Below, one piece after another: positions 9,404 to 23,964 of a DNA stretch of 64,000 nt. The notes beneath the pieces were generated by a model, which saw only the letters and a program-made list of their open reading frames with translations, ran no database searches and was not told the DNA's origin. The position numbers and the translations under genes are program-made. The stretch is from positions 1-64,000 of the forward strand of contig CATBQD010000001.1 in the NCBI GenBank assembly GCA_949505625.1, in the 5' to 3' direction. How positions within the stretch are numbered: position 1 is the first letter of the stretch; each line of letters starts with the position of its first letter. Source of the stretch: an uncultured Bacilli bacterium. Lineage in GTDB: Bacteria; Bacillota_I; Bacilli_A; RF39; UBA660.

Positions 9404-9410
9404 CTATATG

Positions 9411-9632
9411 TGCGATGAGAGGGAAAAGTAATAATAATACTAACAAAAGCGAGTCTGATATGGTGAAAGCAGATAGTCAAAGGTTATTATGAAGAACACC
9501 CAGGAGCAATTTTTCCGAAAAAATATTTTTAGTAGGTTAAATCGGGTTGTAATCCGTTATCATTACATAAGAGAGATCATTTATGATAATTTGGGTGGCA
9601 CCGCGGAATAGATTCGTCCCATATAGGACGAA
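9411..9632 (+). promoter_or_regulatory. T-box riboswitch, asparagine specifier
   Basis: The leader has the stem I features: 5' GATGAGAGGG, an AGTAATAATAAT strand pairing with GTTATTAT, and an apical GGTGAAAGCAGA loop. The specifier triplet AAC (Asn) at 9495-9497 is followed by A. The T-box core GGGTGGCACCGCGG starts at 9593; its TGGC bulge matches a GCCA tRNA end, as expected for a tRNA-Asn with discriminator G. The competing hairpin TTCGTCC/GGACGAA (9613-9619 with 9626-9632) is followed by A-rich sequence with no T tract, so it is not a normal T-box terminator. A tRNA gene follows immediately. Confidence 0.9.
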
Positions 9633-9643
9633 AAAATAAAACT

Positions 9644-9719
9644 GCTCAATTAGCTCAGTTGGTAGAGCATCCGGCTGTTAACCGGCAGGTCGTAGGTCCG
9701 AGTCCTACATCAGGCGCCA
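9644..9719 (+). tRNA. tRNA-Asn(GUU), structurally aberrant, inside the asnS leader
   Basis: 76 nt with encoded CCA, anticodon GTT at 9677-9679, canonical D arm (GCTC/GAGC, loop AGTTGGTA) and a full 5-bp T stem. Defects: acceptor pairs 4:69 (C-A) and 5:68 (A-C) are mismatched, 3:70 is G-U, anticodon-stem pair 27:43 is T-C, and T-loop position 55 is C in place of U. The discriminator is G, which fits Asn and the T-box TGGC. It starts 11 nt after the T-box hairpin, so it is presumably transcribed from the T-box promoter. It may be a functional tRNA, a decaying copy or a regulatory tRNA mimic. Confidence 0.8.
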
Positions 9720-9729
9720 GTTTGATAAT

Positions 9730-9765
9730 AAATAAGTCCTAGTATATTAGGACTTATTTTTGTTT
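9730..9765 (+). terminator. Strong intrinsic terminator between tRNA-Asn and asnS
   Basis: The stem AAATAAGTCCTA (9730-9741) pairs with TAGGACTTATTT (9748-9759), and a T-rich tail follows. It is the only canonical terminator in the asnS leader, so control of asnS may act here and not at the T-box hairpin. Confidence 0.85.
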
Positions 9766-9785
9766 ATAAGAAAAGGAGAGATAAT

Positions 9786-11156
9786 ATGGATGTAAAAGAA
9801 TTATATGAAAAAATAGATGGATATAAAGATAAAGAAGTAACATTGCAAGGATGGATCCGTAACCATAGAAGACAAAAGGATTTCGGATTTTTAGATTTTT
9901 CTGATGGAACATGTTTTAAAAATGTTCAAATTGTTTATGATAGATCATTAAAAGACTTTGATGAAATAACAAAAATATTAGTTGGAAGTGCTGTTACAAT
10001 AACTGGTCTTGTTAAAGATTCAGAAGGAAAACAGGACTTTGAGATCAAATTAAATACCATTAAATTAGAAGGTGCTTGTCCAGAAGATTATCCAATTCAA
10101 CCAAAAAGACATACGAGAGAATTTTTAAGAGAAGTGGCATATTTAAGACCAAGAACAAACTTATTTAGTGCTGTATTTAGAGTAAGAAGCGTTGCAGCAT
10201 ATGCAATTCATAAATATTTCCAGGATAATGGTTATGTATATTTTCATGCTCCAATTATTACTGCTAGCGACTGTGAAGGAGCAGGAGAAATGTTTCAATT
10301 GACAACCTTAGATTTGGATAAAGTGGCCTCAAATGGAGAAGTTGATTATAGTAAAGACTTCTTTGGAAAACAAGCAGCTTTAACAGTAAGTGGACAATTG
10401 CAAGCAGAAACATTCGCTCTTACTTATAAAAAAACTTATACATTTGGTCCAACATTTAGAGCAGAAAATTCCAACACAAAAACACATGCATCTGAGTTTT
10501 GGATGATTGAACCAGAAATTGCTTTTTGTGATTTAGATGGCGATATGGAAATCATGGAAGGTATGCTTAAATATGTTGTAAAATATGTATTAGATACTTG
10601 CCCAGATGAAATGAAATTTTTTGATCAATTCGTAGAAAGTGGTTTAATAGAAAAATTAGAAAAACTAGTAAATAGCCATTTTACTAGAATTGATCATAAA
10701 GATGTTATTAAAATTTTAAAAGAAGCAAATGTAAAATGGGAATTTGAGCCAGAATATGGAGAAGATATTGCCAAAGAACATGAAAAATATATTACAGAAT
10801 ATTTTAATGGACCAGTATTTATTAAAAATTGGCCAAAAGATATTAAAGCGTTTTATATGAAACAAAATGAAGATGGGGAAACAGTAGCAGCTGTAGATTT
10901 AGAGGTTCCAGGAGCAGGAGAATTAATGGGAGGTTCTCAAAGAGAAGAAAATTATGAAAAATTAAAACAAAGAATGAAAGATATGAATGTTAGTGAAGAA
11001 GGACTAGAATGGTATCTAAATTTAAGAAGATATGGAGGATGTGTTCATTCAGGATTTGGAATGGGGTTTGAAAGATTACTAATTTATTTAACTGGAGTAG
11101 ACAATATTAGAGATGTAATTCCATATCCAAGAACTCCAAAAAATTGTGAGTTTTAA
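9786..11156 (+). CDS. asnS: Asparaginyl-tRNA synthetase
   Basis: A class IIb synthetase of 456 aa charging tRNA-Asn. The N-terminal OB-fold anticodon-binding domain contains VTLQGWIRNHRRQKDFGF. Class II motif 2 is the FRAENSNTKTHASEF segment and motif 3 is GFGMGFERLL near the C-terminus. The ATG follows an AAAGGAGAG site. Regulation: Asn-specific T-box, then a tRNA-Asn gene and a terminator upstream. Asn rather than Asp specificity follows from the family sequence pattern and the AAC specifier. Confidence 0.96.
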   Translation: MDVKELYEKIDGYKDKEVTLQGWIRNHRRQKDFGFLDFSDGTCFKNVQIVYDRSLKDFDEITKILVGSAVTITGLVKDSEGKQDFEIKLNTIKLEGACPEDYPIQPKRHTREFLREVAYLRPRTNLFSAVFRVRSVAAYAIHKYFQDNGYVYFHAPIITASDCEGAGEMFQLTTLDLDKVASNGEVDYSKDFFGKQAALTVSGQLQAETFALTYKKTYTFGPTFRAENSNTKTHASEFWMIEPEIAFCDLDGDMEIMEGMLKYVVKYVLDTCPDEMKFFDQFVESGLIEKLEKLVNSHFTRIDHKDVIKILKEANVKWEFEPEYGEDIAKEHEKYITEYFNGPVFIKNWPKDIKAFYMKQNEDGETVAAVDLEVPGAGELMGGSQREENYEKLKQRMKDMNVSEEGLEWYLNLRRYGGCVHSGFGMGFERLLIYLTGVDNIRDVIPYPRTPKNCEF

Positions 11157-11215
11157 TAAGACTTTGTGTTTATTTGCGTGAATAGAACTAGAAAGCTATA
11201 TTTTAATTTCATTAA

Positions 11216-11247
11216 AAAATAGATAGGGAAACATTCCTATCTATTTT
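11216..11247. terminator. Strong bidirectional terminator ending the radical-SAM operon
   Basis: A 12-bp perfect stem, AAAATAGATAGG (11216-11227) with CCTATCTATTTT (11236-11247), with an A run at the left end, which is a T run on the minus strand. It overlaps the methyltransferase stop codon and also lies downstream of asnS. Confidence 0.88.
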
Positions 11248-11908
11248 CCTTCTTCACAACAAATAAATGATATGGCTTTGGCTTAAAATACTTTTTAAAA
11301 TTAACAATTCTTTTAGATAGTGGTTCTCTATTCATACCTGTTTCTTCAATGATAACTCCACCTGAATCTTTAATTAGCTTTCTCCAATATGATAATTCTA
11401 AAACTCTTTCATTTCCATATTTTGCTTCTTTTGGCGAAAAATACTTTGTTGGAATTCCTACAATTACAGTTTTAGCAACATATAATTGTTGTTTGATAAT
11501 GTTTACAATTTCTTCATCTGTAAAATGCTCTAATACTCCATTACTAAAAGCAACATCAAATAAATTCTGAGAATATCCAAGATCAAAGATAGATTTTTTC
11601 TCGAATATTATATTTTCCTCACTATAATTGAATGTTTTAAAATAATCACTTGCTAAGCTTTTAGATAATTTGATAACACCGTCTTCTATATCAATAGCAG
11701 TTACTTGATAACCTAAGGAAGCTAAATGTATAGAAATTACAGAAGTACCACTACCACATTCTACAACTTTTTTGTTTGCATATTTTTGAATTAGATGAAT
11801 TAATTTTTTCTTTTTATTGATTTTGCTTAAAATATATGGAATATTACCACCTTTTTTTCTTACATCTGCTTCATATATTTTTCCCCACCTATTGGTTTCT
11901 GTATTCAT
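11237..11908 (-). CDS. Class I SAM-dependent methyltransferase (last gene of operon)
   Basis: A Rossmann-type methyltransferase of 223 aa counted from the ATG at 11908, which has an AAGGAG site 10 nt upstream; a TTG two codons earlier is an alternative start. Motif I is VVECGSGTSVISIHLASLG, followed by an acidic strand end AIDIEDG that binds the SAM ribose. FDVAFSNGVLEHF is the motif IV region. The target is unknown. It is 6 nt downstream of the ITPase-like gene and ends in the operon terminator, so it probably modifies a small molecule made by the cluster; that is inference. Confidence 0.85.
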   Translation of the reverse strand: MNTETNRWGKIYEADVRKKGGNIPYILSKINKKKKLIHLIQKYANKKVVECGSGTSVISIHLASLGYQVTAIDIEDGVIKLSKSLASDYFKTFNYSEENIIFEKKSIFDLGYSQNLFDVAFSNGVLEHFTDEEIVNIIKQQLYVAKTVIVGIPTKYFSPKEAKYGNERVLELSYWRKLIKDSGGVIIEETGMNREPLSKRIVNFKKYFKPKPYHLFVVKKENR

Positions 11909-11914
11909 GAGCAA

Positions 11915-12463
11915 TCAACTCCTTAAATGTTTTACTAAGTCTTGCCAATTCTCGTTACTATATTTTTTAGCTCTTTCTTTTTGACTAAAATTAGCAATCG
12001 TTTTATCATCTCCATCGCAGATAAAAATTCTATCGTAATTATATCCTTCAGCTCCAGATAATTCAGTAGATAATGTACCATAGGTATAAGTGGTAAAAAG
12101 AACTGGTTTTTTTCCATATTCACAATATGCTAGAACCTCTTTGTAATAAGCTTTCCTATTTGTCTTATGTTCCATCATTTTAAGAATATCTTTAGCATCT
12201 AATTTCCGTTCAACATATTCAGCATATGGACCAGGAAAGCCATTTAATGCCTCAATATAAAATCCAGTATCAACTTTGACTACATTTTGTTTTGTAAAAT
12301 TACTTGCATATAAAGCTGAAGTTTTTGCAATTGTTTCATTATCATCACTTTGAATTTCTGGACAATCAATTTTCATTGCTCTCACATTTATATTTTCTTG
12401 ATTAAGAATCGTATTTGCAATTCTTACTTTTTCTTGATTTCCAGTTATAAATAAAATTTCCAT
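11915..12463 (-). CDS. ITPase/Ham1-family nucleotide pyrophosphatase
   Basis: 182 aa with the Ham1/RdgB signature: FITGNQEKV at the N-terminus (NTP phosphate-binding loop), VDTGFYIEALNGFPGPYAEY near residues 64-83, and GAEGYNYDRIFI toward the C-terminus. The PGPY form of the loop is nearer to the eukaryotic/archaeal ITPase type than to bacterial RdgB (PGVYSARY), so this may be a specialised enzyme rather than the housekeeping RdgB. The family cleaves non-canonical (d)NTPs to NMP and PPi. Ribosome site AAAGGAAT. Its place in an operon with other nucleotide enzymes supports a pathway role. Confidence 0.88.
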   Translation of the reverse strand: MEILFITGNQEKVRIANTILNQENINVRAMKIDCPEIQSDDNETIAKTSALYASNFTKQNVVKVDTGFYIEALNGFPGPYAEYVERKLDAKDILKMMEHKTNRKAYYKEVLAYCEYGKKPVLFTTYTYGTLSTELSGAEGYNYDRIFICDGDDKTIANFSQKERAKKYSNENWQDLVKHLRS

Positions 12464-12495
12464 ATATAAGCATTCCTTTCCTATAGAATTTAATC

Positions 12496-13878
12496 TTAGT
12501 TTTTAATATAATTTTCATTTAATATGGCTTCTGCACATAAAAGTCCTGATGCCATAGCTTGTAGTACTCCGCGAAAATGCCCAGTAGCATCTCCGATAAT
12601 ATAAATACCGTCTATATTTGTTTCAAAATTTTTATTTAAAATAAATTTCTTCCATCCCATTTCAAAAGAAGGTGCATAAACAGTATTTTTATCATCTGCG
12701 AATCCTGGTAAGACTTGATCAATTTTATGAATGAAATCTTTTAAAACAAGCAATGTTTTTTCTGGCATGTAATCATTGATATTTGCTTCTATTACATCAG
12801 GCATACTAAAATTAGTACTAAATATATTTTTCTCATTTGTATTATTCATAAAATTTCTCATTGATTGCACAATTGGCTTTTTCTCAATTGATATTTTATC
12901 AATAATATCATAGATTTGTTCTATTGGAAAATCTACTTTATACCTATGATGAACCGCTAAATTAACAACATCAGAAAGTTTGCCACCATCTTCATCAGTT
13001 CCAATAATATGGCCATCTAAAGAAGATACCAACTTATCTCCAGTCATATTATAAACACATTTTGTAATAAATCCTTTATAATCTTGACAAAATGTTCTTA
13101 ATTCGCTTCCATCTTCAAGCTTCATTTTTAATTTTAAATCATTATGAATATTATTTACTTTATTAAAAACATGATATGGCATTTCTATCCTAACACCAAT
13201 TTCAATTTCTTGGGCTTCATCTTCATATTTTATTCCTAATTTATTTGAAAACTTTGTTAATTGTCTACTTCCAATTCTCCCAACAGCAAATAAAATTTTA
13301 TCAGCATTATATTGATCTTTATTTGTTTTTAATAAAAATGTTCCATTGTCAAGTCTCATAATGTCTTTGACTTGTTCTTGTAATTGAATATCAACACCGT
13401 TTTTTAAAAGCTCTTCTTTTAAGCTAAAAGCAATTTTATTCATGGTAAGCTTTGAAACTTTTTGAGAATTATAATATTTCATTTCAATTCCTTGAATATC
13501 AAATTCCTCTTTTAATTTTAAAATAGCTTCTTTAGAAGGAGCTAGTCTAGGACTTTTTCCATGATGTTCTAAAATATTGTCAACTTTTTCATATAACTTA
13601 TCAATATTCATATCATCATCTATAAATTCTAATAGTCCACTTCCGGCAGGGAATATACTTAATTTTGTCCCTTCAAAAAACTGCGCTCCTCCAAATCCAC
13701 CAATAATATGACAAGTGGGCTTACAATACATACATTTTCCACATGTCTCGATTTTACACTCTTTATCTTTTAAATCGACCCCAGCATCCAACAATAAAAC
13801 TTTTTTCTTTAAAGATAATTCTTTTGCCGCAAATAAACCAGCAGGGCCAGCTCCAATAATAATTACATCATAATTCAT
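12496..13878 (-). CDS. FAD-dependent oxidoreductase (COG2509-like)
   Basis: 460 aa. The N-terminal dinucleotide-binding motif is DVIIIGAGPAGLFAAKE (residues 4-20), and the C-terminal FAD motif is GIYIIGDATGHFRGVLQA. A cluster of five cysteines follows the N-terminal motif (C41, C46, C49, C52, C56) just before the family's GGFGGAQFF glycine-rich loop; it could bind a metal or Fe-S cluster or be redox-active. Relatives are FAD-dependent dehydrogenases of uncertain substrate. It lies 3 nt from the upstream radical-SAM gene, so tight translational coupling is likely. It could supply electrons or oxidise an intermediate in the pathway. Confidence 0.85.
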   Translation of the reverse strand: MNYDVIIIGAGPAGLFAAKELSLKKKVLLLDAGVDLKDKECKIETCGKCMYCKPTCHIIGGFGGAQFFEGTKLSIFPAGSGLLEFIDDDMNIDKLYEKVDNILEHHGKSPRLAPSKEAILKLKEEFDIQGIEMKYYNSQKVSKLTMNKIAFSLKEELLKNGVDIQLQEQVKDIMRLDNGTFLLKTNKDQYNADKILFAVGRIGSRQLTKFSNKLGIKYEDEAQEIEIGVRIEMPYHVFNKVNNIHNDLKLKMKLEDGSELRTFCQDYKGFITKCVYNMTGDKLVSSLDGHIIGTDEDGGKLSDVVNLAVHHRYKVDFPIEQIYDIIDKISIEKKPIVQSMRNFMNNTNEKNIFSTNFSMPDVIEANINDYMPEKTLLVLKDFIHKIDQVLPGFADDKNTVYAPSFEMGWKKFILNKNFETNIDGIYIIGDATGHFRGVLQAMASGLLCAEAILNENYIKN

Positions 13879-13881
13879 TTT

Positions 13882-14586
13882 TTACTCCTTTCTTGTCCAT
13901 GAATTGGAAATTTCTCCATTTGGAAATATCTTCCAAGGTTTTACATTGTTTTTAATATGAGGTAAGTCTGCTCTCATAATAACGTGTCCTCGATAAATCA
14001 TAGCAGGATAAAATTCAAATACTCTCACAAATTCTGTATTTGGTAAAGAGTCGAGATAATCAACTTTCTTTCTTTTTAAACACCAATCATTTGCTGTATT
14101 TAGAGTTGAAAATTTTAAATAATACTTTTTTTCAAACTGATCAATAAAATGGTCTAAATCTTTTCTTGTTGGAAATCTTTCTTGCCATATAATTGTAGAT
14201 AAAGTAATATCTGATTTGAAATCTTTTTGGTCTGGTAATTCTTTTTGATCATAATAAGAAATATTAAAGCTATCAACGATTCCATCTAATTGTTTCATTA
14301 TTTCTGGATTTTCATAGTTGGTAGTCAATACTAAATTAAAATTTCTCTTTTTTACCATTTTAGCAATTTCTACAATATTAGGGTGTTTTGTCGGTTCTCC
14401 ACCTGTCAAAAAAATATCTTTTACTTTTAACTTTTCTGCATAATCTAATCCTTTTTCAACATTTTCAAAACTGATGTATTCATTTCTGCCTCGATATTTA
14501 TCTGTACAAAAAGGGCAATTGCGACCACACTCATGAGTTGTAACAATAATAAAATAGTCAGTATCTTTTGTTTTTATATTATACAT
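13882..14586 (-). CDS. Radical SAM protein, short (234 aa)
   Basis: The [4Fe-4S] motif is CX3CX2C (C20, C24, C27: CGRNCPFC). The SAM-binding motif is LTGGEPT near residue 61, and ISYYDQKE lies on a later core strand. The C-terminus carries an IFPNGEISNSW segment, which is shared with two other radical-SAM proteins of this operon, so the three are paralogues. No SPASM-type cysteine cluster is present. The Cys motif differs from the CX14CX2C of B. subtilis-type QueE. Function unknown. Ribosome site is weak (GGAGATGTAAT). Confidence 0.88.
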   Translation of the reverse strand: MYNIKTKDTDYFIIVTTHECGRNCPFCTDKYRGRNEYISFENVEKGLDYAEKLKVKDIFLTGGEPTKHPNIVEIAKMVKKRNFNLVLTTNYENPEIMKQLDGIVDSFNISYYDQKELPDQKDFKSDITLSTIIWQERFPTRKDLDHFIDQFEKKYYLKFSTLNTANDWCLKRKKVDYLDSLPNTEFVRVFEFYPAMIYRGHVIMRADLPHIKNNVKPWKIFPNGEISNSWTRKE

Positions 14587-14603
14587 ATTACATCTCCATT
14601 CTC

Positions 14604-16748
14604 TTATAATGGTTTAAATCTTTTTACTTTTTCTTTATCTACGTGAAGCCCTAGTTGTGTTCTTTCTATAATTCCATTTAGAATAATAGATAAATCATTT
14701 TTATGCTTTTTGACATATTGTTTCCATGTGTCAGTATCAATAGTTTCTGAATTACTAGCTAACTTTAATGCTAAAAGAATAATTTCTTCCCAAACAATGA
14801 TTTCAGCATCGTTAATCTCTTCTGCAATATCTTGCCATAATTGATTCTTAGAATACTCTTTTACTTTAGCTAATATAAAATCATTTACTCTAGCATTATA
14901 ATCGGCAAATAATTCTTTTGCAATATCAATTAAAATAGAAAATGTTTCTACTTTTTGATCTTTAAATCTTGTTATTTTTCTTTCATAAAAAGGTAATCCA
15001 TCTGGGCTCTCTTCCTTGATTGCTCTATATAAGTCGGTCCCATAGTAAAGATTCAATTTATTGTATAAGTTATGTTTTGTATATCCACCTATTTTTAATA
15101 TCCATGTTACATTTTCAGTTAATTGTTCATAAGTTAACTCTGGGTCAATCATAATGTATCCATATTCAGCAGTTACATCTAATTTTTGTAAGATTTTTAA
15201 GGCTTCTTCTGCTTGATTAGGCGTATGTCCTTTTCTATATTTTCTTAACGTTTCTAAATTACCACTTTCAAATCCAATAAATAAATTATCTAAGCCGACT
15301 TCTTTTAAAACTTTAATAATAGGTTCACTAATAGAATCAACTCTAGCTTCAGCATGAAAAAGAATCTTTACATGTTGTCTTTTCATTTCTTTACAGAAAT
15401 CATAAATCCAACTTAAATTTGTTTTATCAATAAATAGTTCATCAACAAAATAGAAACAATTAATTCCATATGTTTCCTGTAAATATTTAATTTCATCAAC
15501 AACATTTTTAGGACTACGCACTCTGCGGCCGTGTTGATCAGTTAAACAGCTCATTGAACAGAAACTGCAATTTCCATAACATCCTCTTCCAGCAGATATA
15601 TGTGCATAATAAAATCCTGAACTGATTTCTTTTTTCATATCATCAAAAAAATCTTTAGCAGGAAATGGTAACTCATCTAAATTTTCTATGACATTTTTAC
15701 TGCCATTTACATGTACATTTCCAAGTTCATCTCTATAAACAATACCGGGAATATCTTGATAATTTCCTTGCTTTTTTATGATTGAATTTAAATAGTCTAC
15801 AATAAATTTTTCTCCTTCTCCTAAGCAAATCGCATCCACATCTTGGCATTCTTTTAAAATTAGTTCATATGCGATAGAAGGGAAAATGCCACCTAAATAA
15901 ATAGGTACAGAAGAAACTTCTTTTATTTTCTCTGCATATTCTTTTACGATTGGATAAGCTCTTTGGGCTGTTAAAGAAATTCCTATTACTTTAGGAGAAT
16001 AATGTTTCACCAATTTTTGAATATCATCTTTTGTATATTTGTTATGTTCAGCATGAATAATTTTAACACTATATCCCGCTTTTCTAGCACTGCTTGTTAA
16101 ATAGCCTAAGGCTAAATTATCTTTAGAACGTAACTCATTTTTCCAATTAGCGTCTTCTAGATACGGAAAAATAAATAAGCAATCAACAGGTTCTTTTTCT
16201 AATGTATTAGGGACTTTTTTTTTGTTTTCTGTAAGTTTACTGCTTAGTCCAAAATATTCCATGGCATATTTCACTGAATTTTCTACACATCCACTAGTAG
16301 AAGTATTTACAATTGGAATATGAAATTTGTTAGCGATTTTTAAATTAATATCAATCCAATAGCTGTTATCATACCATTCTGATTCATCTTCATCTCGAAG
16401 TTTTAATCGTTCAATGGTATCTTCCAATGTTGCATAACATAAAACAACTGGTATTTTTTCAAAGTATTCTTGAAATTCATCCCATCTTTCTTCTGGTAAT
16501 GCACTAATTGGTGTGATTAAACCTCTATCAAGAACAATATCTTGTTCTTCTAATAAAGCTTGATCTAGTGCTTTTTTGGTCATGAAAATGAGTTCTTCAT
16601 CCGTTACCGATAATGGCTCTATGTCATAATTTACTCCATATTCGGAAAAGAAATGAACGTATTTTGCGCCAATCAATTCGGCGATTTTTTTGGCTATAGA
16701 AGTTTTCCCAGAACCGTCATAACCTTCTATCATATAAATTTTTCCCAT
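14604..16748 (-). CDS. Thymidylate-kinase-like domain fused to B12-binding radical SAM enzyme
   Basis: 714 aa. Residues 1-170 form a P-loop nucleoside-monophosphate-kinase domain: Walker A EGYDGSGKTS (8-17) and DRG motif VLDRGLITP (72-80), most like dTMP kinase or deoxynucleoside kinases. Residues about 185-330 form a cobalamin-binding-type Rossmann domain (LALGYLTSSARKAGYSVKII; IYLGGIFPSIAYELIL), without the DXHXXG motif for base-off B12. The radical-SAM core begins at AGRGCYGNCSFC (C390, C394, C397), followed by EARVDS and GFESGN. The C-terminal helical part is of B12-rSAM type. The kinase fusion is unusual and ties the chemistry to a nucleoside or nucleotide substrate (inference). Confidence 0.88.
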   Translation of the reverse strand: MGKIYMIEGYDGSGKTSIAKKIAELIGAKYVHFFSEYGVNYDIEPLSVTDEELIFMTKKALDQALLEEQDIVLDRGLITPISALPEERWDEFQEYFEKIPVVLCYATLEDTIERLKLRDEDESEWYDNSYWIDINLKIANKFHIPIVNTSTSGCVENSVKYAMEYFGLSSKLTENKKKVPNTLEKEPVDCLFIFPYLEDANWKNELRSKDNLALGYLTSSARKAGYSVKIIHAEHNKYTKDDIQKLVKHYSPKVIGISLTAQRAYPIVKEYAEKIKEVSSVPIYLGGIFPSIAYELILKECQDVDAICLGEGEKFIVDYLNSIIKKQGNYQDIPGIVYRDELGNVHVNGSKNVIENLDELPFPAKDFFDDMKKEISSGFYYAHISAGRGCYGNCSFCSMSCLTDQHGRRVRSPKNVVDEIKYLQETYGINCFYFVDELFIDKTNLSWIYDFCKEMKRQHVKILFHAEARVDSISEPIIKVLKEVGLDNLFIGFESGNLETLRKYRKGHTPNQAEEALKILQKLDVTAEYGYIMIDPELTYEQLTENVTWILKIGGYTKHNLYNKLNLYYGTDLYRAIKEESPDGLPFYERKITRFKDQKVETFSILIDIAKELFADYNARVNDFILAKVKEYSKNQLWQDIAEEINDAEIIVWEEIILLALKLASNSETIDTDTWKQYVKKHKNDLSIILNGIIERTQLGLHVDKEKVKRFKPL

Positions 16749-16752
16749 ATTA

Positions 16753-17289
16753 TTACCTCATTTCTTTATCTGGATATCGTAATATTTGAATGTTAAAATC
16801 ATGATGCAATTGATCTAATAAATCACTAATGTTTTTTACTTCTTTTACATGCACATTTCCAGGATTTATCTTTTCAGCCATTCCAATAACATACCATTGA
16901 TTGGTATGATAAAGGTCTGATTCTGTTTCAGAAGAAATATAGTAAATATACATTGGTTTTTTATTTTGAGCAGCATACATCATTTCTCCCAAAGTCCCAG
17001 CTGTTATTTCTTTTTGTAAAAATGCAACAAAGATATCGATTGTTGGAATAATAGCAAATTCCCTTTTCAAAATTAGTTTTGAGGATAAAGATGGTTTTCC
17101 AAATTCATCTGCATAATAGAATGATGGCCAACCATAAGCATATTCTTCATTCAACGGAATGGGATCAAATGGCATTAAAATTTTTTCACTATCTACAATA
17201 CAACAACGATAATCCTTAGTTAAATTAGATAGTTCTTTGTTTTCAAAATCAATTTCCATATGTCCAGCAAAATAAATATTTTTTCGCAT
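16753..17289 (-). CDS. Nucleoside 2-deoxyribosyltransferase / nucleotide N-glycosidase-like protein
   Basis: 178 aa. The start IYFAGHM matches the beta1 and loop of the NDT fold (IYLAGPM in relatives). The segment IDIFVAFLQKEITAGTLGEM with MYAAQNKKP (residues 84-112) matches the D-x-x-VA-...-GT-x-x-E-x-x-YA pattern, in which the Glu (E102 here) is the glycosidic nucleophile. Family members transfer deoxyribosyl between bases or hydrolyse nucleotides to base and sugar phosphate (Rcl/DNPH1, MilB, BlsM). The gap to the kinase-rSAM fusion is 4 nt. Residue-level specificity cannot be judged. Confidence 0.75.
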   Translation of the reverse strand: MRKNIYFAGHMEIDFENKELSNLTKDYRCCIVDSEKILMPFDPIPLNEEYAYGWPSFYYADEFGKPSLSSKLILKREFAIIPTIDIFVAFLQKEITAGTLGEMMYAAQNKKPMYIYYISSETESDLYHTNQWYVIGMAEKINPGNVHVKEVKNISDLLDQLHHDFNIQILRYPDKEMR

Positions 17290-17301
17290 AAAAATTCCTC
17301 C

Positions 17302-18126
17302 TTATTGTATTTTTTTTAATAATTCTATTACTTTATTTTTATAATCAATTTCCATATCATCGCTTTTCCAAGTGGTACTTAAATTTCCATTTGGATATAA
17401 TTTTAATGTACAAATATCTTCTATTTTTGGTAAATGTACATGTGGTAGTTTAATGAGACGACCTTTATAAAGAGCAGCGCCAACATTTCCACGGACATCT
17501 TGTTTTTCTAATTTTGGGATCAACTTTGTTTCTACCCAATCTGGTTGATAAGAACTGAAATTTGGCGTTGTTTCTTGTAATGTAGAAAAATCATAATTAA
17601 ATGGTAACTTATTTGTTTGATCAATAAATGAATCGAATTCTTCGAATGTTTTAAAAAACTCTTTCGAAATCAGTTTTGAAATTGTAATGCTTGATTTTTT
17701 AAAATCATATAAATAATTCATATTATGAAAAGGTAATAATCCTTTCCCATAATTAGAAATCGTAATAAAATCTATATATCCATCTAATTCTAATAATTTC
17801 TCATTTAAAGTTCCATTTGTATAAAATTCTGTTTTATAGCCAAATTGATGGGCTAAATCTGAAATTTCTTGTAACATTTCTATTGGTAATAAAGTAGGTT
17901 CTCCCCCAAGAAGTACAATAATACATTCTTCTAATTTTTCTATATATTTTAAATAGATCAAAAAATATAATATATCCGATATTTTAATAAAACCTTTTTT
18001 CTTTTTTCCTAGTTCATAATTAATACAAAAGGAACAGTTCATATTACATTCATAAGTAACAATGATCTGTGCTCTTCTAATATTCCAATTTCTAAGATTG
18101 ATTCCACCATCTTTTTTTGCTTCCAT
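17302..18126 (-). CDS. Radical SAM protein (274 aa)
   Basis: The [4Fe-4S] motif is CNMNCSFC (C27, C31, C34), the SAM motif is LLGGEPTLLP, and the core strand is ITISNYGKG. The C-terminal LKLYPNGNLSTTW segment aligns with the same element in the neighbouring radical-SAM genes, and the middle FSTLQET motif is also found in the gene upstream (FSTLQEN). It is therefore a paralogue of the N-terminal half of that gene. No auxiliary-cluster cysteines are obvious. Ribosome site AAAGGAAT, 15-nt gap from the upstream gene. Substrate unknown. Confidence 0.88.
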   Translation of the reverse strand: MEAKKDGGINLRNWNIRRAQIIVTYECNMNCSFCINYELGKKKKGFIKISDILYFLIYLKYIEKLEECIIVLLGGEPTLLPIEMLQEISDLAHQFGYKTEFYTNGTLNEKLLELDGYIDFITISNYGKGLLPFHNMNYLYDFKKSSITISKLISKEFFKTFEEFDSFIDQTNKLPFNYDFSTLQETTPNFSSYQPDWVETKLIPKLEKQDVRGNVGAALYKGRLIKLPHVHLPKIEDICTLKLYPNGNLSTTWKSDDMEIDYKNKVIELLKKIQ

Positions 18127-18141
18127 TTTTTTATTCCTTTC

Positions 18142-19749
18142 TTATAGCGATTGATAATCGAAATCTTCAAATAAAGTTAAGGTTTCTTCAATGATCGGAT
18201 AATATAGCTTTAAATTTTCTTTTGGTTTACTTGGTAAATAAGGAATTCCATTTTCTTGTGCTACCAAGTGTCTAATGACTACTTTTTTGTAATAATGAGT
18301 TCCATTATCATCATTTCCAAAATAGAAATTGCCATCATTATCAATAAGATAATCATATTTTTTCTGGATATCTTGAAGAAAGAATTCATCATAGCCAGAA
18401 ATTTTTTTCAAACCCATTTCCTCTACAGAATTTAAAACGCTTTGTTTCTTCAACTGATGAGGAATAATTAAAGTATGAGAGTGAATACCACTATCATTTT
18501 TGATGATATTTTGCCAAGCATTTACAAGAGATATAAAGACGTTTTCTTTATTATCTTCTGTTACGATTTCCATAAATTTAGATAATTCTTTTTTTATAGA
18601 TTCATAATGATTGGCTGCATGCTCACTAACAAGTGCCTTAAATTGAAATTTCTGTTCTAAGAATTTGGATACTTTATCTAACATTTCTAAAAAATCTTTT
18701 TTTTCATTTTCATCATATTCTAATGGTGATAAATGAAATTTTTTAGAGGCAATACTAACAGTACCTGGGACAAAACATTTATTAATTGTCATTAAAAGCA
18801 TAGTGTCATTTTCTGCAATAACAGTACTATATATGGGGTTAGGAATTCCTGATTTATAGTTTGTATAACTTCTCTCAAGCCAATGATTTCTAGAAGAATA
18901 ATCAAGAGCTTCTATTAGTTTTTTATGATATTCTTGATTTTTAAATTTATAATTTTTTTTGTATTCTATTGTCGAATCTTCATTCCCGAAATCTCTATTT
19001 GCACTTCCATTTGGATATAATTTTGGGTATGGAGGAAACTCTATACTTGCATTTTGATCATGATAATGCATGATTTTAATAATATATCCTTCATATTCTG
19101 CAGCATGTAAGCATTCTAAAACAGGAACTACATTACAAGTTGGTAATAGTTCATCATCTACCCATTTAGGATGTAATTCATTTAAGTTATATGTATTTTC
19201 TTGTAATGTTGAAAAACGATAATTTAAAGGACAGGATTTTGCTTCTTTGATAAATTCTTTAAAGCTATCAAAAGTAGGGAAAGCGTCTTTGGTAATTAGT
19301 TTTGATAACGTAATCTCAGTCTTTTTGAACTGATATAAATAATCTTTATCCATAATGGCTCTTTTCCCATAATGTGATACGTTAATAAAATCAATATAAC
19401 CATCTAATTCTAACAACTTTGCTCCAGACTGTCCATTGGTTGTCATAGCAGCATTAAATCCATAATAATGGATTAAATCAGCAACTTTTTTCAAATAGTC
19501 AAATGGAACTTTTGTAGGTTCTCCTCCTAAAATCAAAACGGAAGACATGTTAGGATGCTCTTTTTTTTCTGTTTCTGCAAGAAATTTTAGATAATCTTCA
19601 ATATCAGATAAGCTAGTGACATCATGGTAAGTATCTACAAATTTATCAATACAAAATTTACATCCTATTCCACAAGTATGAGTAACAAGTAAATCAGCGT
19701 GCCAACATTCTAAATCATGGACTGAGAATCGATGTTTTTTATTTGTCAT
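18142..19749 (-). CDS. Radical SAM enzyme fused to a divergent HIT-like domain
   Basis: 535 aa. The N-terminal 270 residues are a radical-SAM domain: CGIGCKFC (C26, C30, C33), LGGEPTK (74-80), INVSHYGKR, FSTLQENT and KLYPNGSAN (243-251). Residues 285-520 resemble HIT-superfamily nucleotide hydrolases/transferases: FVPGTVSIASKKFHLSPL for the N-terminal strands, SEHAANHY (375-382), SGIHSHTLIIP (420-430) in the place of the H-x-H-x-H-x-x-P triad, and DYLIDNDGNFYF with a late KKVV segment. The middle (catalytic-type) His H425 is kept while the third His is replaced by Leu. The HIT assignment is by pattern only. Confidence 0.82.
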   Translation of the reverse strand: MTNKKHRFSVHDLECWHADLLVTHTCGIGCKFCIDKFVDTYHDVTSLSDIEDYLKFLAETEKKEHPNMSSVLILGGEPTKVPFDYLKKVADLIHYYGFNAAMTTNGQSGAKLLELDGYIDFINVSHYGKRAIMDKDYLYQFKKTEITLSKLITKDAFPTFDSFKEFIKEAKSCPLNYRFSTLQENTYNLNELHPKWVDDELLPTCNVVPVLECLHAAEYEGYIIKIMHYHDQNASIEFPPYPKLYPNGSANRDFGNEDSTIEYKKNYKFKNQEYHKKLIEALDYSSRNHWLERSYTNYKSGIPNPIYSTVIAENDTMLLMTINKCFVPGTVSIASKKFHLSPLEYDENEKKDFLEMLDKVSKFLEQKFQFKALVSEHAANHYESIKKELSKFMEIVTEDNKENVFISLVNAWQNIIKNDSGIHSHTLIIPHQLKKQSVLNSVEEMGLKKISGYDEFFLQDIQKKYDYLIDNDGNFYFGNDDNGTHYYKKVVIRHLVAQENGIPYLPSKPKENLKLYYPIIEETLTLFEDFDYQSL

Positions 19750-19753
19750 AATT

Positions 19754-20608
19754 TTATCCTTTCAAAACTTTTTGTTTTTCACCTATAGTTGGTTTTACTA
19801 ATTTTTCAAATAAGGGATAATACTGATCGATAAAGCTTCCAGAAACAATTACAATGAAGTTTTTTACTTGCTCTTCTGAGAACACGTGAAGAGTTCCCTC
19901 GTTTCCATAAGATTGTTCGATGTATTGTTTGGTTTTTTGAATGACTGAACCAATATTTTGATAATCAACTTCAGAAATACCAGGATTAGTAAAAGTTTTA
20001 GCACTTTCTAATAATGCTTTACTATCAAAAGACACTCCATAAAACTCTAACATCAAACGGTTCATGACTGTATAATCTTGATAAATACTGACATTACTAT
20101 CATGAGCCCAAACATCTTCTTGCTTTTCTATTTTTCCACTTTTTTTTATAAGCATAAACATTAATTCATCTGCATATTTAGTTGGTTTTAAATCCGCATC
20201 TAAACAATCAAATGCTGCACAAAATAAATCATTAAAAAATAATTTGTCAGTATATATATGATAAAAATATCCTAGTGCACTAAAATCAGATTCTAATAAT
20301 TTTTTATATTTTTCTAAAAACATTTCTAAATTAGGAACTTGAATACATAGTCTATAATCTTCTTTATCTCGAAAGTGAGTTGCTATTTTTTCTTCTTGAA
20401 CTAATCTTTGAAATTCTCTTTTCCAGACTTTTTTCTCTTCTTCTGTTAGCTGTTCTGGGATCTCTTTTTGTAGCCTTGTTGAGTCTACAATTAAATTTCC
20501 AAGTAAAAATTCATGTCTTTGTTTTTCTGTTAATGTAACTCCATATTTTTGTTCTAATTTTTTTAAAAACTGTTCTCCAGCAATGTTGTGGATAACAAAT
20601 GACGCCAT
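19754..20608 (-). CDS. Zinc-dependent phospholipase C-like protein (first gene of operon)
   Basis: I start it at the ATG at 20608, which has a perfect AGGAGGT site; the longer frame to 20692 runs through the divergent promoter. The 284 aa contain the Zn-PLC fold pattern: VIHNIAGEQF (His7), FLLGNLIVDSTR (34-45), ATHFRD (76-81) and LGYFYHIYTDKLFF (112-125). His and Asp at these places bind the zinc ions in relatives. It has no signal peptide, unlike secreted PLCs, so it is probably a cytoplasmic phosphohydrolase. It leads the operon; it may act on a phosphorylated intermediate (inference). Confidence 0.78.
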   Translation of the reverse strand: MASFVIHNIAGEQFLKKLEQKYGVTLTEKQRHEFLLGNLIVDSTRLQKEIPEQLTEEEKKVWKREFQRLVQEEKIATHFRDKEDYRLCIQVPNLEMFLEKYKKLLESDFSALGYFYHIYTDKLFFNDLFCAAFDCLDADLKPTKYADELMFMLIKKSGKIEKQEDVWAHDSNVSIYQDYTVMNRLMLEFYGVSFDSKALLESAKTFTNPGISEVDYQNIGSVIQKTKQYIEQSYGNEGTLHVFSEEQVKNFIVIVSGSFIDQYYPLFEKLVKPTIGEKQKVLKG

Positions 20609-20635
20609 AAAATTACCTCCTTTGTCATTTTGCAC

Positions 20636-20668
20636 TTGTATTATAAGAAAAAATGAGCTATAATACAA
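20636..20668. promoter_or_regulatory. Palindromic divergent promoter pair
   Basis: The perfect 10-bp inverted repeat TTGTATTATA (20636-20645) and TATAATACAA (20659-20668) holds two promoters. Plus strand: -35 TTGTAT (20636-20641), 17 nt, -10 TATAAT (20659-20664), towards LysR. Minus strand: -35 TTGTAT (complement of 20663-20668), 17 nt, -10 TATAAT (complement of 20640-20645), towards the radical-SAM operon. Each -10 overlaps the other promoter's -35, so only one polymerase can bind at a time. Confidence 0.8.
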
Positions 20669-20690
20669 ATACTTTTTTGATATAGCACAC

Positions 20691-20705
20691 ATAACTGGTG
20701 GTTAT
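20691..20705. promoter_or_regulatory. Candidate LysR-type operator
   Basis: ATAAC-TGGTG-GTTAT is a perfect inverted repeat with the T-N11-A layout of LysR boxes. It lies in the leader between the divergent promoter and the LysR start, where it could autoregulate. Confidence 0.45.
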
Positions 20706-20722
20706 TGTAAGGTGAGGGTTAT

Positions 20723-21607
20723 ATGAATATCGATTTAGAATTATATAGGGTGTTTTATAGTGTTGCAAGGAATAAAAATATTACAAAAGCATCTTTGGAA
20801 CTTAGAATTAGTCAACCTGGAGTAAGCAAAAGCATTAAGAATCTAGAAGGACAATTAGGATGTACTTTGTTTGTTAGAAATAAATATGGAGTTGTTTTAA
20901 CAGAAGAAGGTAAAGTTTTTTATGAACAAATAGAAAAAGCAATGGAATTTATTGAACATGCAGAAGATGCGATTTCTGAAATGATTAACATGGAAACAGG
21001 AGTATTAACAATTGGGATTAGTAATACATTAACACAAAAGTATTTGCTACCTTTTATACAAGAGTTTCATGAATTATATCCTAAAATAAAAATTAAAATT
21101 ATTACAAATCCAACATTTGAATTGATTAATAAAGCAAGAAATGGTTTATTAGACTTTATTATATTAAATTTGCCATATCAGATTCCAAATGATTTTGTGG
21201 AGTGCAAATTAAAAACAATTCATGATTGTTTTGTAGCGAATCAGAAATTTAAACATTTAAAAGGAAAAAAGTTATCTTTAAAAGAATTAAATGATTATCC
21301 ATTAATTTTAATTTCGCAAGGTTCCAATACTAGATATTTTTTAGATAAAATCTGTTTGGAAAATGGAGTTGTTTTAAAACCTGAAATTGAATTAACAAGT
21401 TATTCTTTGGTAACCCAGTTTACAAAAATTGGTTTAGGGATAGGATTTGTAACAAAAGAATATTTGGAACATGAAATAGAAGATGGAACACTATTTGAAA
21501 TAGATTTAAAAGAAAAAATAGAAGATCGTTATATTGGAATGATCTATATGGAAAATAGAGTACTTTCTAATACATCGAAAAAATTTATAGAACTTTTAAA
21601 AAGATAA
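20723..21607 (+). CDS. LysR-family transcriptional regulator
   Basis: 294 aa with the standard N-terminal winged HTH (LYRVFYSVARNKNITKAS and QPGVSKSIKNLE, residues 6-40) and a periplasmic-binding-protein-like effector domain from about residue 90. It is transcribed away from the radical-SAM operon out of a shared palindromic promoter, the usual arrangement for a LysR protein that controls its divergent neighbour and itself. The effector is unknown; a pathway intermediate or product is likely. Ribosome site AAGGTGAGGG. Confidence 0.93.
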   Translation: MNIDLELYRVFYSVARNKNITKASLELRISQPGVSKSIKNLEGQLGCTLFVRNKYGVVLTEEGKVFYEQIEKAMEFIEHAEDAISEMINMETGVLTIGISNTLTQKYLLPFIQEFHELYPKIKIKIITNPTFELINKARNGLLDFIILNLPYQIPNDFVECKLKTIHDCFVANQKFKHLKGKKLSLKELNDYPLILISQGSNTRYFLDKICLENGVVLKPEIELTSYSLVTQFTKIGLGIGFVTKEYLEHEIEDGTLFEIDLKEKIEDRYIGMIYMENRVLSNTSKKFIELLKR

Positions 21608-21630
21608 TCCTTAAAAGAGGGGGAGTGTAT

Positions 21631-22740
21631 ATGAAGAAATTTCAAGAAGATATGATGAGCTGGTATGGAAATCATTATTATCCGTTAGAATTTGAAATCA
21701 GAAGTTTATTAGAAACAAATCCTTCTTTAACATTATCAGAAATAAAATGCCTTTTAAAACAATCTAAAATAGAGTATACAGATGAGATGATAGAAGAGTG
21801 TTTATATAATTTATTGGTACGTTATGGAGCTATTGTGAAAGATGACTTTTGGGACGGAGAACCAAGGTATCATTATATAGAGCAATATCGACAAGATTCT
21901 TCTTATACGAAAAGTTATTATTCGTTTAATGTAGATAATAATCAAAATAAAAAGTTTTTATTAACTGCAGATACTCATATTGGAAATCCAGAATTTGAGA
22001 ATTTTAGACTGGTAAATAATGTATATGAAAAAGGCATTGAAATGGGTGCGAATAAATGTTTTCATTTAGGAGATATATTTGATGGAAGATATCTAGTTTA
22101 TTCAGATGAAGAAGCAGAAAAACAATTGGAAGCATTTATAAAAAAATATCCAAATCCAGATAAGTCAGAAATGATGACTTATGCATTATTAGGAAATCAT
22201 GATGAATGGATTCATGGTTCTGTTAACCATATATCAAAATATGGTCAGGCTTATTATTATGATTTTCGTTGTTTATCAAAATATATTCCGAGTTTTAATA
22301 CATTTCAAAGAGATAAATGGCAGACAAGCTTTGGAGATATTGGAACTTTATTCAGTCATCGATTATATATTAGTTGGATTTATCCGGATAAAAGACTTCA
22401 CCAATTAGAAGACATAGAAGAGGAAAAAAGATGGATGAATTCGGATTATCGATTGTTAGTTTCAGGACATTTACATTGTGGATTTCTCTATAGTGCAGAT
22501 GATTTAAAATACTCAAAAGATGATATTATATTTCTTGGCGTTCCGTCAACAAGTAATAGAAATTTAGGAGGAACAGTAGCTTATGTTATTTCTATGAATT
22601 ATAAAAATGGTTTACCACAAAATATGGAGATTACTCCATTAGATTGCGATAGAAATTGTTCAATTTATGAAGGAGAAACATTTGAATGGAATTTTCGTGG
22701 AAAAAATAAAGTATATCAAAAAACATTCAATATAAAGTAA
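21631..22740 (+). CDS. Calcineurin-like metallophosphoesterase
   Basis: 369 aa counted from the ATG at 21631 behind AAAGAGGGGGAG; a GTG two codons earlier is less likely. All metallophosphoesterase blocks are present: TADTHIGN (D-x-H), HLGDIFDGR (GD-x-x-D), LLGNHDEW (GNHD) and VSGHLHCG (GH-x-H). An N-terminal region of about 90 residues has winged-helix character (LTLSEIKCLLKQSKIEYTDEM). It lies 23 nt after the LysR gene and is probably co-transcribed with it. The substrate may be a nucleotide, nucleic acid or phosphoprotein. Confidence 0.9.
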   Translation: MKKFQEDMMSWYGNHYYPLEFEIRSLLETNPSLTLSEIKCLLKQSKIEYTDEMIEECLYNLLVRYGAIVKDDFWDGEPRYHYIEQYRQDSSYTKSYYSFNVDNNQNKKFLLTADTHIGNPEFENFRLVNNVYEKGIEMGANKCFHLGDIFDGRYLVYSDEEAEKQLEAFIKKYPNPDKSEMMTYALLGNHDEWIHGSVNHISKYGQAYYYDFRCLSKYIPSFNTFQRDKWQTSFGDIGTLFSHRLYISWIYPDKRLHQLEDIEEEKRWMNSDYRLLVSGHLHCGFLYSADDLKYSKDDIIFLGVPSTSNRNLGGTVAYVISMNYKNGLPQNMEITPLDCDRNCSIYEGETFEWNFRGKNKVYQKTFNIK

Positions 22741-22878
22741 CAAACATTATCAATGATAGAAATAAAAATGTAATCTTATAAAAAGAATATGGCATAATTG
22801 TCATATTTTATTTTAAGGTTTTGTCATTTACAAAAATAAAATCCAATGTTATACTTAATATAATAAGGGTGATAGCAA

Positions 22879-23964
22879 ATGGGATTAGATGAATTAGAAA
22901 AGTATCAAATTGAAGTTTTGATTGAACGTTTGAAAATATCATATCCAAATGTTTTAAATGAATTGGCAGCAACTGAGTTAAAAGAGAAAATGTTAAATAG
23001 TAAGCAAGACTTTACGACCCTTTCCAGAGAACTAAGTATAGCGTTTCAAGATCAAATTAAATTAGAGGGGTTGTTGTTTAAATATCAATTAAAAGCGAAA
23101 GAAATAGTGACGGAAAAAGCTGATGGAGAAATTCAACAAGCATTAAATATGAGTGAAGTTACTGATTTTACGAAAGATGGAAAAACGTATATCAAAATTA
23201 CTTATAGAGATGGAAGAGTTCAAATAATAGAAAATAGAAGCGGAAAAGATACAAAAGAGATTTTTAAGGATATTCAACGCTTAAAGGCTCTAAATAATAT
23301 AGATGGGACAATGAATGCAGAAGCAGCTTTTAGAGAACTATTAAAGGATTATAGAGAAGTATCATTAAATAATACAATGTTTTTAAATCAAGATAAATTA
23401 GAAATAAAGGAACAGTCTAAATTAAATTTTGTTCAGATGAATTTCCCAAATAATCAAGTATTTGCATCAGTAACAGAAAATATTTTCATTATTAAAGGGA
23501 ATCCTGATATTACAGTAGAAGTAATAGAACAAGATGGTCATTATACTTTAAAGCAAGTAGGAGAAGCTAGTTATGGTGTGCAAGAAGAAGTTAAAGAAAA
23601 TGTTATGCCTCTAGAAACGATTGAAAGACCAAATGAGATAAAGCAAGAGAATTCAATCGAAGAACTTGAAAAAATTACAGAGGGAATGACAGAAGAAGAA
23701 ATCGTAGAATATTTAAGAATACATGGAAAAAATCCTAGTCAAATAATGATGATTTTATTATCTTTAGAAGAGGCAAAAGCAGTTAGAAAGGAAGAAAAAC
23801 AAAATGAGACTTTAGAAAAACCAAAACAATTGATTTTAAGTAATCCAAAAAAAAGAGGAAAAATGGCGGCGTTTGTAGATACACTTTATTTAGCTTTTTT
23901 AGTAGGTATGATAAGTGGCGCTATATTTTTCGCGATGTTACGCTTTATATTACATTCCTTATAA
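22879..23964 (+). CDS. Tail-anchored protein of unknown function
   Basis: Not recognised. 361 aa, acidic and helical, with no signal peptide and a single C-terminal membrane segment (about residues 333-358, FVDTLYLAFLVGMISGAIFF) directly after a basic KKRGK stretch. This predicts an N-in tail-anchored topology with a large cytoplasmic domain. The centre is beta-rich (YIKITYRDGRVQIIENRSG; NIFIIKGNPDITVEVI). The ribosome site is AAGGGTGAT. It is monocistronic, between the phosphoesterase and the HU gene. A membrane-linked regulatory or sporulation role is possible, but nothing in the sequence decides it. Confidence 0.7.
   Translation: MGLDELEKYQIEVLIERLKISYPNVLNELAATELKEKMLNSKQDFTTLSRELSIAFQDQIKLEGLLFKYQLKAKEIVTEKADGEIQQALNMSEVTDFTKDGKTYIKITYRDGRVQIIENRSGKDTKEIFKDIQRLKALNNIDGTMNAEAAFRELLKDYREVSLNNTMFLNQDKLEIKEQSKLNFVQMNFPNNQVFASVTENIFIIKGNPDITVEVIEQDGHYTLKQVGEASYGVQEEVKENVMPLETIERPNEIKQENSIEELEKITEGMTEEEIVEYLRIHGKNPSQIMMILLSLEEAKAVRKEEKQNETLEKPKQLILSNPKKRGKMAAFVDTLYLAFLVGMISGAIFFAMLRFILHSL

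Follow-up and report, generated by a model that had tools for sequence, protein, structure and literature searches.

Radical-SAM pathways that act on nucleotides have given oxetanocin, albucidin, the ddhCTP of viperin and molybdopterin, and each of these was new chemistry when it was found. Many operons that contain radical-SAM (rSAM) or B12-binding radical-SAM (B12-rSAM) enzymes are RiPP pathways. Within the first group, OxsB and AlsB, of the oxetanocin A and albucidin pathways, use dAMP/dATP as substrates, and OxsB works beside the nucleotide-phosphate enzyme OxsA (PMC13331322). Homologues of the N-glycosidase MilB are recognised by the signature F-L-(G/A)-(G/A)-P-F-x-x-L-(L/V/T) (PMC4081090).

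We analysed a window of 64,000 nucleotides of DNA from an uncultured Bacilli bacterium, in which a minus-strand operon of nine open reading frames runs from 20608 down to 11237. Judged from its proteins, the operon may work in parts like the viperin, OxsB and bacimethrin-type pathways, but by the tests run its members fell outside viperin and MilB. On balance we lean, without strong conviction, towards a horizontally exchanged cassette whose product is a modified nucleotide (or nucleobase), with a pyrimidine nucleotide as the probable starting material. Searches of the open-access literature turned up no such operon, although absence there is not proof of novelty.

Operon layout and the radical-SAM enzymes

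The nine genes are separated by gaps of 4, 15, 12, 4, 17, 3, 32 and 0 nt, and a purine-rich ribosome-binding site precedes most of them. This confirms the tight operon of an earlier sequence-only reading, whose gene list and coordinates are right except for the start of gene 1. We place that start at 20608, where AAAGGAGG lies 5' of the ATG; a far-upstream ATG at 20692 was rejected in favour of it. Divergent from the operon, on the plus strand, are genes for a LysR-family regulator (20723..21607) and a calcineurin-like metallophosphoesterase (21625..22740; PF00149, 2.3e-7). A perfect 10-bp inverted repeat (20636-20645 and 20659-20668) between the operon and the LysR gene gives TTGTAT-N17-TATAAT on either strand, so the divergent promoter claimed earlier is real in outline, as a candidate promoter/operator (20636..20668, both strands) based on consensus and symmetry only. 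The terminator placed at the operon end corresponds to a 14-bp intrinsic hairpin on the minus strand (11214..11249; dG -15.7, z -4.1), which the folding z-score picked up and a consensus terminator scan did not. Neither the operon nor three related operons contained a cobalamin riboswitch or any other Rfam element.

Four radical-SAM proteins had been read in the operon, and all were confirmed. Three of them are small and are encoded on the minus strand by gene 2 (rSAM1; 18142..19749; 535 aa), with a radical SAM domain at residues 1 to about 270 and a HIT-like C-terminus, gene 3 (rSAM2; 17302..18126), which is 41% identical to the N-terminus of gene 2, and gene 6 (rSAM3; 13882..14586). Their radical SAM domains match at 2e-15, 2.5e-10 and 0.0016, and the N-terminal part of rSAM1, rSAM2 and rSAM3 are paralogues with about 30-41% identity. 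The CxxxCxxC cysteines are the sole invariant cysteines in 11 aligned small rSAM sequences, and since only these three are invariant, the small rSAMs should have no SPASM or auxiliary cluster, as in viperin. As in pVip systems, small single-cluster rSAMs share their operon with a kinase domain, and the PADLOC pVip models match the cores of all three. However, the viperin model NF038283, which has a cut-off of 180 bits, gave only 29.3, 39.9 and 31.9 bits and aligned with no more than the N-terminal core, and the operon differs from pVip in the C-terminal KLYPNGN..W signature of its small rSAMs, in the presence of three paralogues and in the additional B12-rSAM. By the tests run, the small rSAMs are not viperins.

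Relatives of this rare family also occur outside the operon context. An orphan rSAM on four Vibrio plasmids of about 0.9 Mb is 48% identical to rSAM3, and a search of viral contigs with the family alignment gave full-length matches in three distinct phage lineages (27-31% identity to rSAM1), which have the ending K-L-Y-P-N-G-N in common with the small rSAMs of the operon. Narrower scans of viral contigs gave no further phage rSAMs of that kind, and scans with alignments of gene 2, gene 4 and gene 5 gave no matches. In one phage lineage, the rSAM and thyX genes overlap by 14 nt, a thioredoxin gene stands directly upstream of the rSAM gene and a family A DNA polymerase gene (polA) is nearby; the order thioredoxin - radical SAM - thyX is seen at L058:3057-4994 and L059:7612-9549. 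It is possible that these phage genes carry out a radical modification of a thymidylate-type nucleotide, and the thyX overlap links the family, independently but in a single lineage, to deoxypyrimidine metabolism, in agreement with the TMPK-like kinase described below. On a jumbo phage contig (L056:8007-9019), the rSAM relative adjoins an acyl carrier protein gene with overlapping stop and start, and on the Vibrio plasmids an acyl carrier protein gene is found two genes from the rSAM relative (L014:14995-16316).

The fourth radical-SAM protein is encoded by gene 5 (14604..16748, minus strand), which had been read as a TMPK-like/B12-radical-SAM fusion. We found the expected domains: a P-loop TMPK-like kinase half (residues 1 to about 180), a B12-binding domain (15804-16118; PF02310, 3e-16) and a radical SAM domain (about 15114-15596; PF04055, 2e-16). 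The kinase half matches phrog_761 'thymidylate kinase' (7e-11 over residues 1-144) and AAA_18 (2e-5) and contains the P-loop GYDGSGKT and a DRG motif, while its scores stay below the thymidylate kinase cut-offs (PF02223, 16.6 vs 27 bits; TIGR00041, 19.7 vs 83 bits). In the other half, C390-x3-C394-x2-C397 is invariant, and the B12-binding domain followed by a CxxxCxxC radical SAM domain is an OxsB-type architecture, found on one chain in OxsB and AlsB as well. OxsB is also the best solved-structure match (residues 211-551, 7e-22; profile 3e-23). In contrast to OxsB and AlsB, the N-terminal domain of gene 5 is a P-loop kinase, and the operon lacks an OxsA-type gene and includes three small rSAMs in addition. 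Profile scores, moreover, put gene 5 at least as near to BchE/HpnJ-type B12-rSAMs as to OxsB. Among NCBIfam models, BchE, HpnJ and HpnR score highest (145-115 bits, BchE 145), so the substrate class of gene 5 is not settled by sequence. In the PADLOC candidate system PDC-M51, too, a B12-rSAM comes with a small partner protein, which resembles the kinase end of gene 5 (M51A, 4.9e-8 over residues 201-552; M51B, 8e-4, residues 1-30 only), but here a single fused chain stands in a nine-gene operon and the scores are low and generic. The neighbourhoods of three plasmid B12-rSAM matches contained no TMPK-like kinase or NDT partner.

Gene 5 also matches the RiPP C-methyltransferase model TIGR03975 at 2e-25. 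Together with the many rSAM/B12-rSAM operons that belong to RiPP pathways, this would fit a RiPP or cofactor pathway in which the nucleotide enzymes are incidental. We consider such a pathway very improbable, as gaps of at most 32 nt leave no room for a precursor peptide within the operon, the small rSAMs have no SPASM cysteines, a peptidase, a leader-binding domain and a peptide exporter are all missing, and the accessory genes of related operons are mostly of nucleotide type. No conserved small peptide gene was seen beside the operon in the four loci compared.

Predicted functions of the remaining genes

Three calls of the earlier reading proved sound, namely a flavoprotein, an ITPase homologue and a methyltransferase, all on the minus strand. 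Gene 7 (12496..13878) encodes an FAD/NAD(P)-dependent oxidoreductase (FAD/pyridine oxidoreductase, 1.8e-17). Gene 8 (11915..12463) encodes an RdgB/HAM1 (ITPase) homologue (PF01725, 5.5e-31), placed in this family by a Ham1p_like domain of 108 bits against a cut-off of 22.5; it matches PRK14821 at 2.3e-48, but its 164 bits are below the equivalog cut-off of 203. Gene 9 (11237..11914), with a TTG start, encodes a class I SAM methyltransferase (PF13847, 8.6e-12).

Gene 1 (19754..20608, minus strand; 284 aa) is a putative Zn-PLC/P1-nuclease-like hydrolase, assigned via its relatives. It is about 22% identical to the first genes of the three related operons, which are 57-66% identical among themselves, and H9, D44 and H119xxxD123, possible metal ligands, are invariant in all of these proteins. 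The Zn-PLC domain (PF00882) reached 17.4 bits (0.0045) in L003 and 13.2 bits in L001, below the cut-off of 26.8, and a Pfam search of the window's own protein gave no match. The original Zn-PLC-like call thus recurs in orthologues, at scores below the cut-off.

Gene 4 (16753..17289, minus strand) had been described as an NDT/MilB-like N-glycosidase. The NDT domain (PF05014) was found in three orthologues at 0.0035-0.009 (16.6-17.9 bits; gathering cut-off 28.8), and the best PDB match of gene 4 is the CMP N-glycosidase 4jen (E 0.008). Its motif T96-A-G98-T-L-G-E102 is kept as T96-A-G98-T-x-G-E102 in all four orthologues, where x is L or I, and thus has the catalytic Glu after S/T-x-G-T-x-x by which the MilB/BcmB and NDT superfamily is recognised. 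Gene 4 resembles MilB, BcmB and BlsM in size, in its NDT-like region and in the S/T-x-G-T-x-x-E motif; it differs from them in that the MilB-family signature is absent from the orthologues, with an invariant YFAGHMEIDF in its place, and the operon has no hydroxymethyl-CMP synthase partner. A profile of the four NDT-like proteins had no match in PDB. By the tests run, gene 4 does not belong to MilB; what stands of the call is an NDT-like protein, below threshold but recurring in orthologues, with the catalytic motif and a resemblance to 4jen.

The HIT-like C-terminus of gene 2 and its orthologues scored 0.015 and 0.14 with PF01230, and 0.006-0.06 in a further search. The orthologues have the HIT-like domain in the same place at 13-18 bits, below the cut-off of 21.5. 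In its motif H423-S-H425-T-L427 the middle histidine is kept and the third is missing in comparison with HxHxH, and profile-profile alignment against canonical HIT proteins had a plausible register but a probability of 4%. The proposed HIT-like fusion therefore recurs consistently, but below threshold and with an incomplete motif. AlphaFold2 models of genes 2 and 4, built from four-row alignments, had pLDDT values of 36 and 43, and neither fold was settled.

The resemblance to OxsB and 4jen brings to mind a nucleoside-type antibiotic or antivitamin, in the style of bacimethrin or oxetanocin, that reaches the outside by a general route and targets competitors, and RdgB and the phosphoesterases could then give self-protection. 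We regard this as unlikely, since the DNA block inserted with the operon has no transporter or resistance gene, the MilB signature is missing and there is no thymidylate-synthase-like MilA partner. The parallel with MilB/BlsM nucleoside antibiotics drawn earlier accordingly keeps the 4jen match and the catalytic Glu and loses the family signature.

Related operons and the site beside asnS

We scanned 84,980 species genomes with gene 5 peptide patterns, which detect close relatives only, and distant versions may exist. Three further operon copies were found (L001, L002 and L003). The order rSAM1/HIT - rSAM2 - NDT - kinase/B12-rSAM - rSAM3 - FAD is common to the four genomes, RdgB and the methyltransferase come next in L001 and L002, and the L003 contig stops inside the FAD gene. 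All four operons have the PLC-like first gene. The eight common proteins show 72-91% pairwise identity, compared with 65-74% for AsnRS, the sole housekeeping yardstick used for cassette versus genome divergence, in the same four genomes. With its order kept in four genomes and a dN/dS of about 0.1, indicating purifying selection, in all eight genes common to the four loci, the operon is one unit under selection. The co-occurrence of the neighbouring genes was thus borne out, as the same gene set and order are present in three other genomes with different flanks and the site is empty in congeners.

The related operons carry accessory genes that are mostly nucleotide-related. L001 and L002 both encode a second RdgB (6.5e-55 in L001) and a winged-helix regulator of NrtR type (1e-13), and in L003 a type I phosphodiesterase/nucleotide pyrophosphatase gene (NPP-type; 1.4e-16) separates rSAM2 from the NDT-like gene. 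The L003 operon also has LysR and metallophosphoesterase genes beside it (34% and 28% identity to those of the window). Only L003 has a 127-aa cysteine-containing ORF (L003:5414-5797), which follows the PLC-like gene and precedes rSAM1. A reading of L002 as a plasmid or ICE was abandoned, as the ORF at L002:22-573, first read as a relaxase tail, gives only coiled-coil Pfam matches.

Within a genus, AsnRS is mostly 88-92% identical, and the carriers, at 65-74%, were therefore taken as different genera. Carriers make up 1/6, 1/17, 1/39 and 1/22 of the genomes compared per genus, and searches with gene 2 of 193 genomes of the family, 395 of the class and 392 of the phylum found only the window's own genome. 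Each of the four carrier genomes (G000, G679, G680 and G681) has the gene 5 fusion as its sole PF02310 protein above the cut-off, and five congeners have none. A carrier cell would need cobalamin import for gene 5 alone.

In congeners, asnS is followed by the gene found at position 22879 of the window, directly or after short unrelated DNA. This empty site indicates that a block of about eleven genes (about 11160..22825, edges approximate), the LysR and metallophosphoesterase genes included, was gained here or lost there, and the sporadic pattern favours gain. From these comparisons, we infer that the cassette is transferred as one piece from genus to genus. No repeats of at least 10 nt are common to both insertion ends, and the block contains no integrase. 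In the congener G003, asnS is followed by unrelated DNA of about 0.76 kb that includes a protein fragment (L023:2395-3155), and the site after asnS may be variable. Upstream, the window has a T-box leader, an immediately adjoining tRNA-Asn gene and asnS in this order (9406-9786), so that transcription of the tRNA-Asn may be controlled by its own T-box. The layout T-box - tRNA-Asn - asnS is shared by four congeners (L022, L023, L024 and L025), which have two tRNA-Asn copies, compared with one, of lower tRNA score, in the window's genome.

The inserted block contains no exporter, transporter or resistance gene. A horizontally moved unit of sporadic occurrence, without an exporter and with an empty site in congeners, would also suit an anti-phage role, in which the operon, in the manner of prokaryotic viperins, makes an intracellular chain-terminating nucleotide whose triphosphate pool is raised by the kinase; the pVip matches of the three rSAM cores and the matches of the gene 5 halves to the two PDC-M51 proteins agree with this. 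However, these PADLOC matches are to generic cores and are far below other families such as BchE, the viperin scores of 29-40 bits are well short of the equivalog cut-off, the LysR, metallophosphoesterase and 22879 genes have no PADLOC match, and the pathway is large for a defence module. We therefore think an antiviral role improbable. Quite unlikely, too, is its fullest form, a mobile innate-immunity pathway of small-genome Bacilli in which three viperin-like enzymes and a kinase-fused B12-rSAM make a new antiviral nucleotide and RdgB protects the producer.

A proposed nucleotide-modifying pathway

Our preferred reading, a pathway to a modified nucleotide, draws on the RdgB homologue, the phrog_761 match of the kinase half, the NDT similarity with its catalytic Glu motif, the second RdgB, NPP-type phosphodiesterase and NrtR regulator of related operons, OxsB as the best solved structure for the B12-rSAM half, small rSAMs that are single-cluster as in viperin, and the overlap of one phage rSAM relative with thyX. 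Against it, the NDT and HIT domains are below their cut-offs and the NDT profile finds nothing in PDB, few B12-rSAM structures exist, the top NCBIfam models of gene 5 are of BchE/HpnJ type, enzymes that do not act on nucleotides, and two other rSAM relatives are near an acyl carrier protein gene without nucleotide genes. The nucleotide theme of the sequence-only reading is thus upheld for RdgB, the kinase and the relatives' accessory genes but not for the sub-threshold NDT and HIT domains, and a modified nucleoside or nucleotide as the product is suggested by this theme.

In the proposed pathway, the TMPK-like kinase half of gene 5 would set the phosphorylation state of the nucleotide and feed it to, or receive it from, the B12-rSAM half. 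The latter and the three small rSAMs would remodel the sugar or base, on the model of OxsB/AlsB acting on dAMP/dATP and viperin acting on CTP. The NDT-like enzyme could break or exchange the N-glycosidic bond, and the FAD enzyme and methyltransferase would complete the product. RdgB and the phosphoesterase/PLC-type hydrolases may strip phosphates, either for product release or to keep the triphosphate form from the producer's own DNA and RNA. Since the block has no exporter, the product perhaps acts inside the cell.

In conclusion, the cassette is real, conserved, probably mobile and rarely sampled, and is most likely a new form of radical-SAM nucleotide-analogue biosynthesis. The kinase/B12-rSAM fusion offers a direct clue that a phosphorylated nucleotide may be passed to or from a cobalamin radical enzyme. 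Overall, genomes of about 1.3-1.5 Mb here carry a compact unit of about 11.7 kb with four radical enzymes, its own regulator and no exporter.
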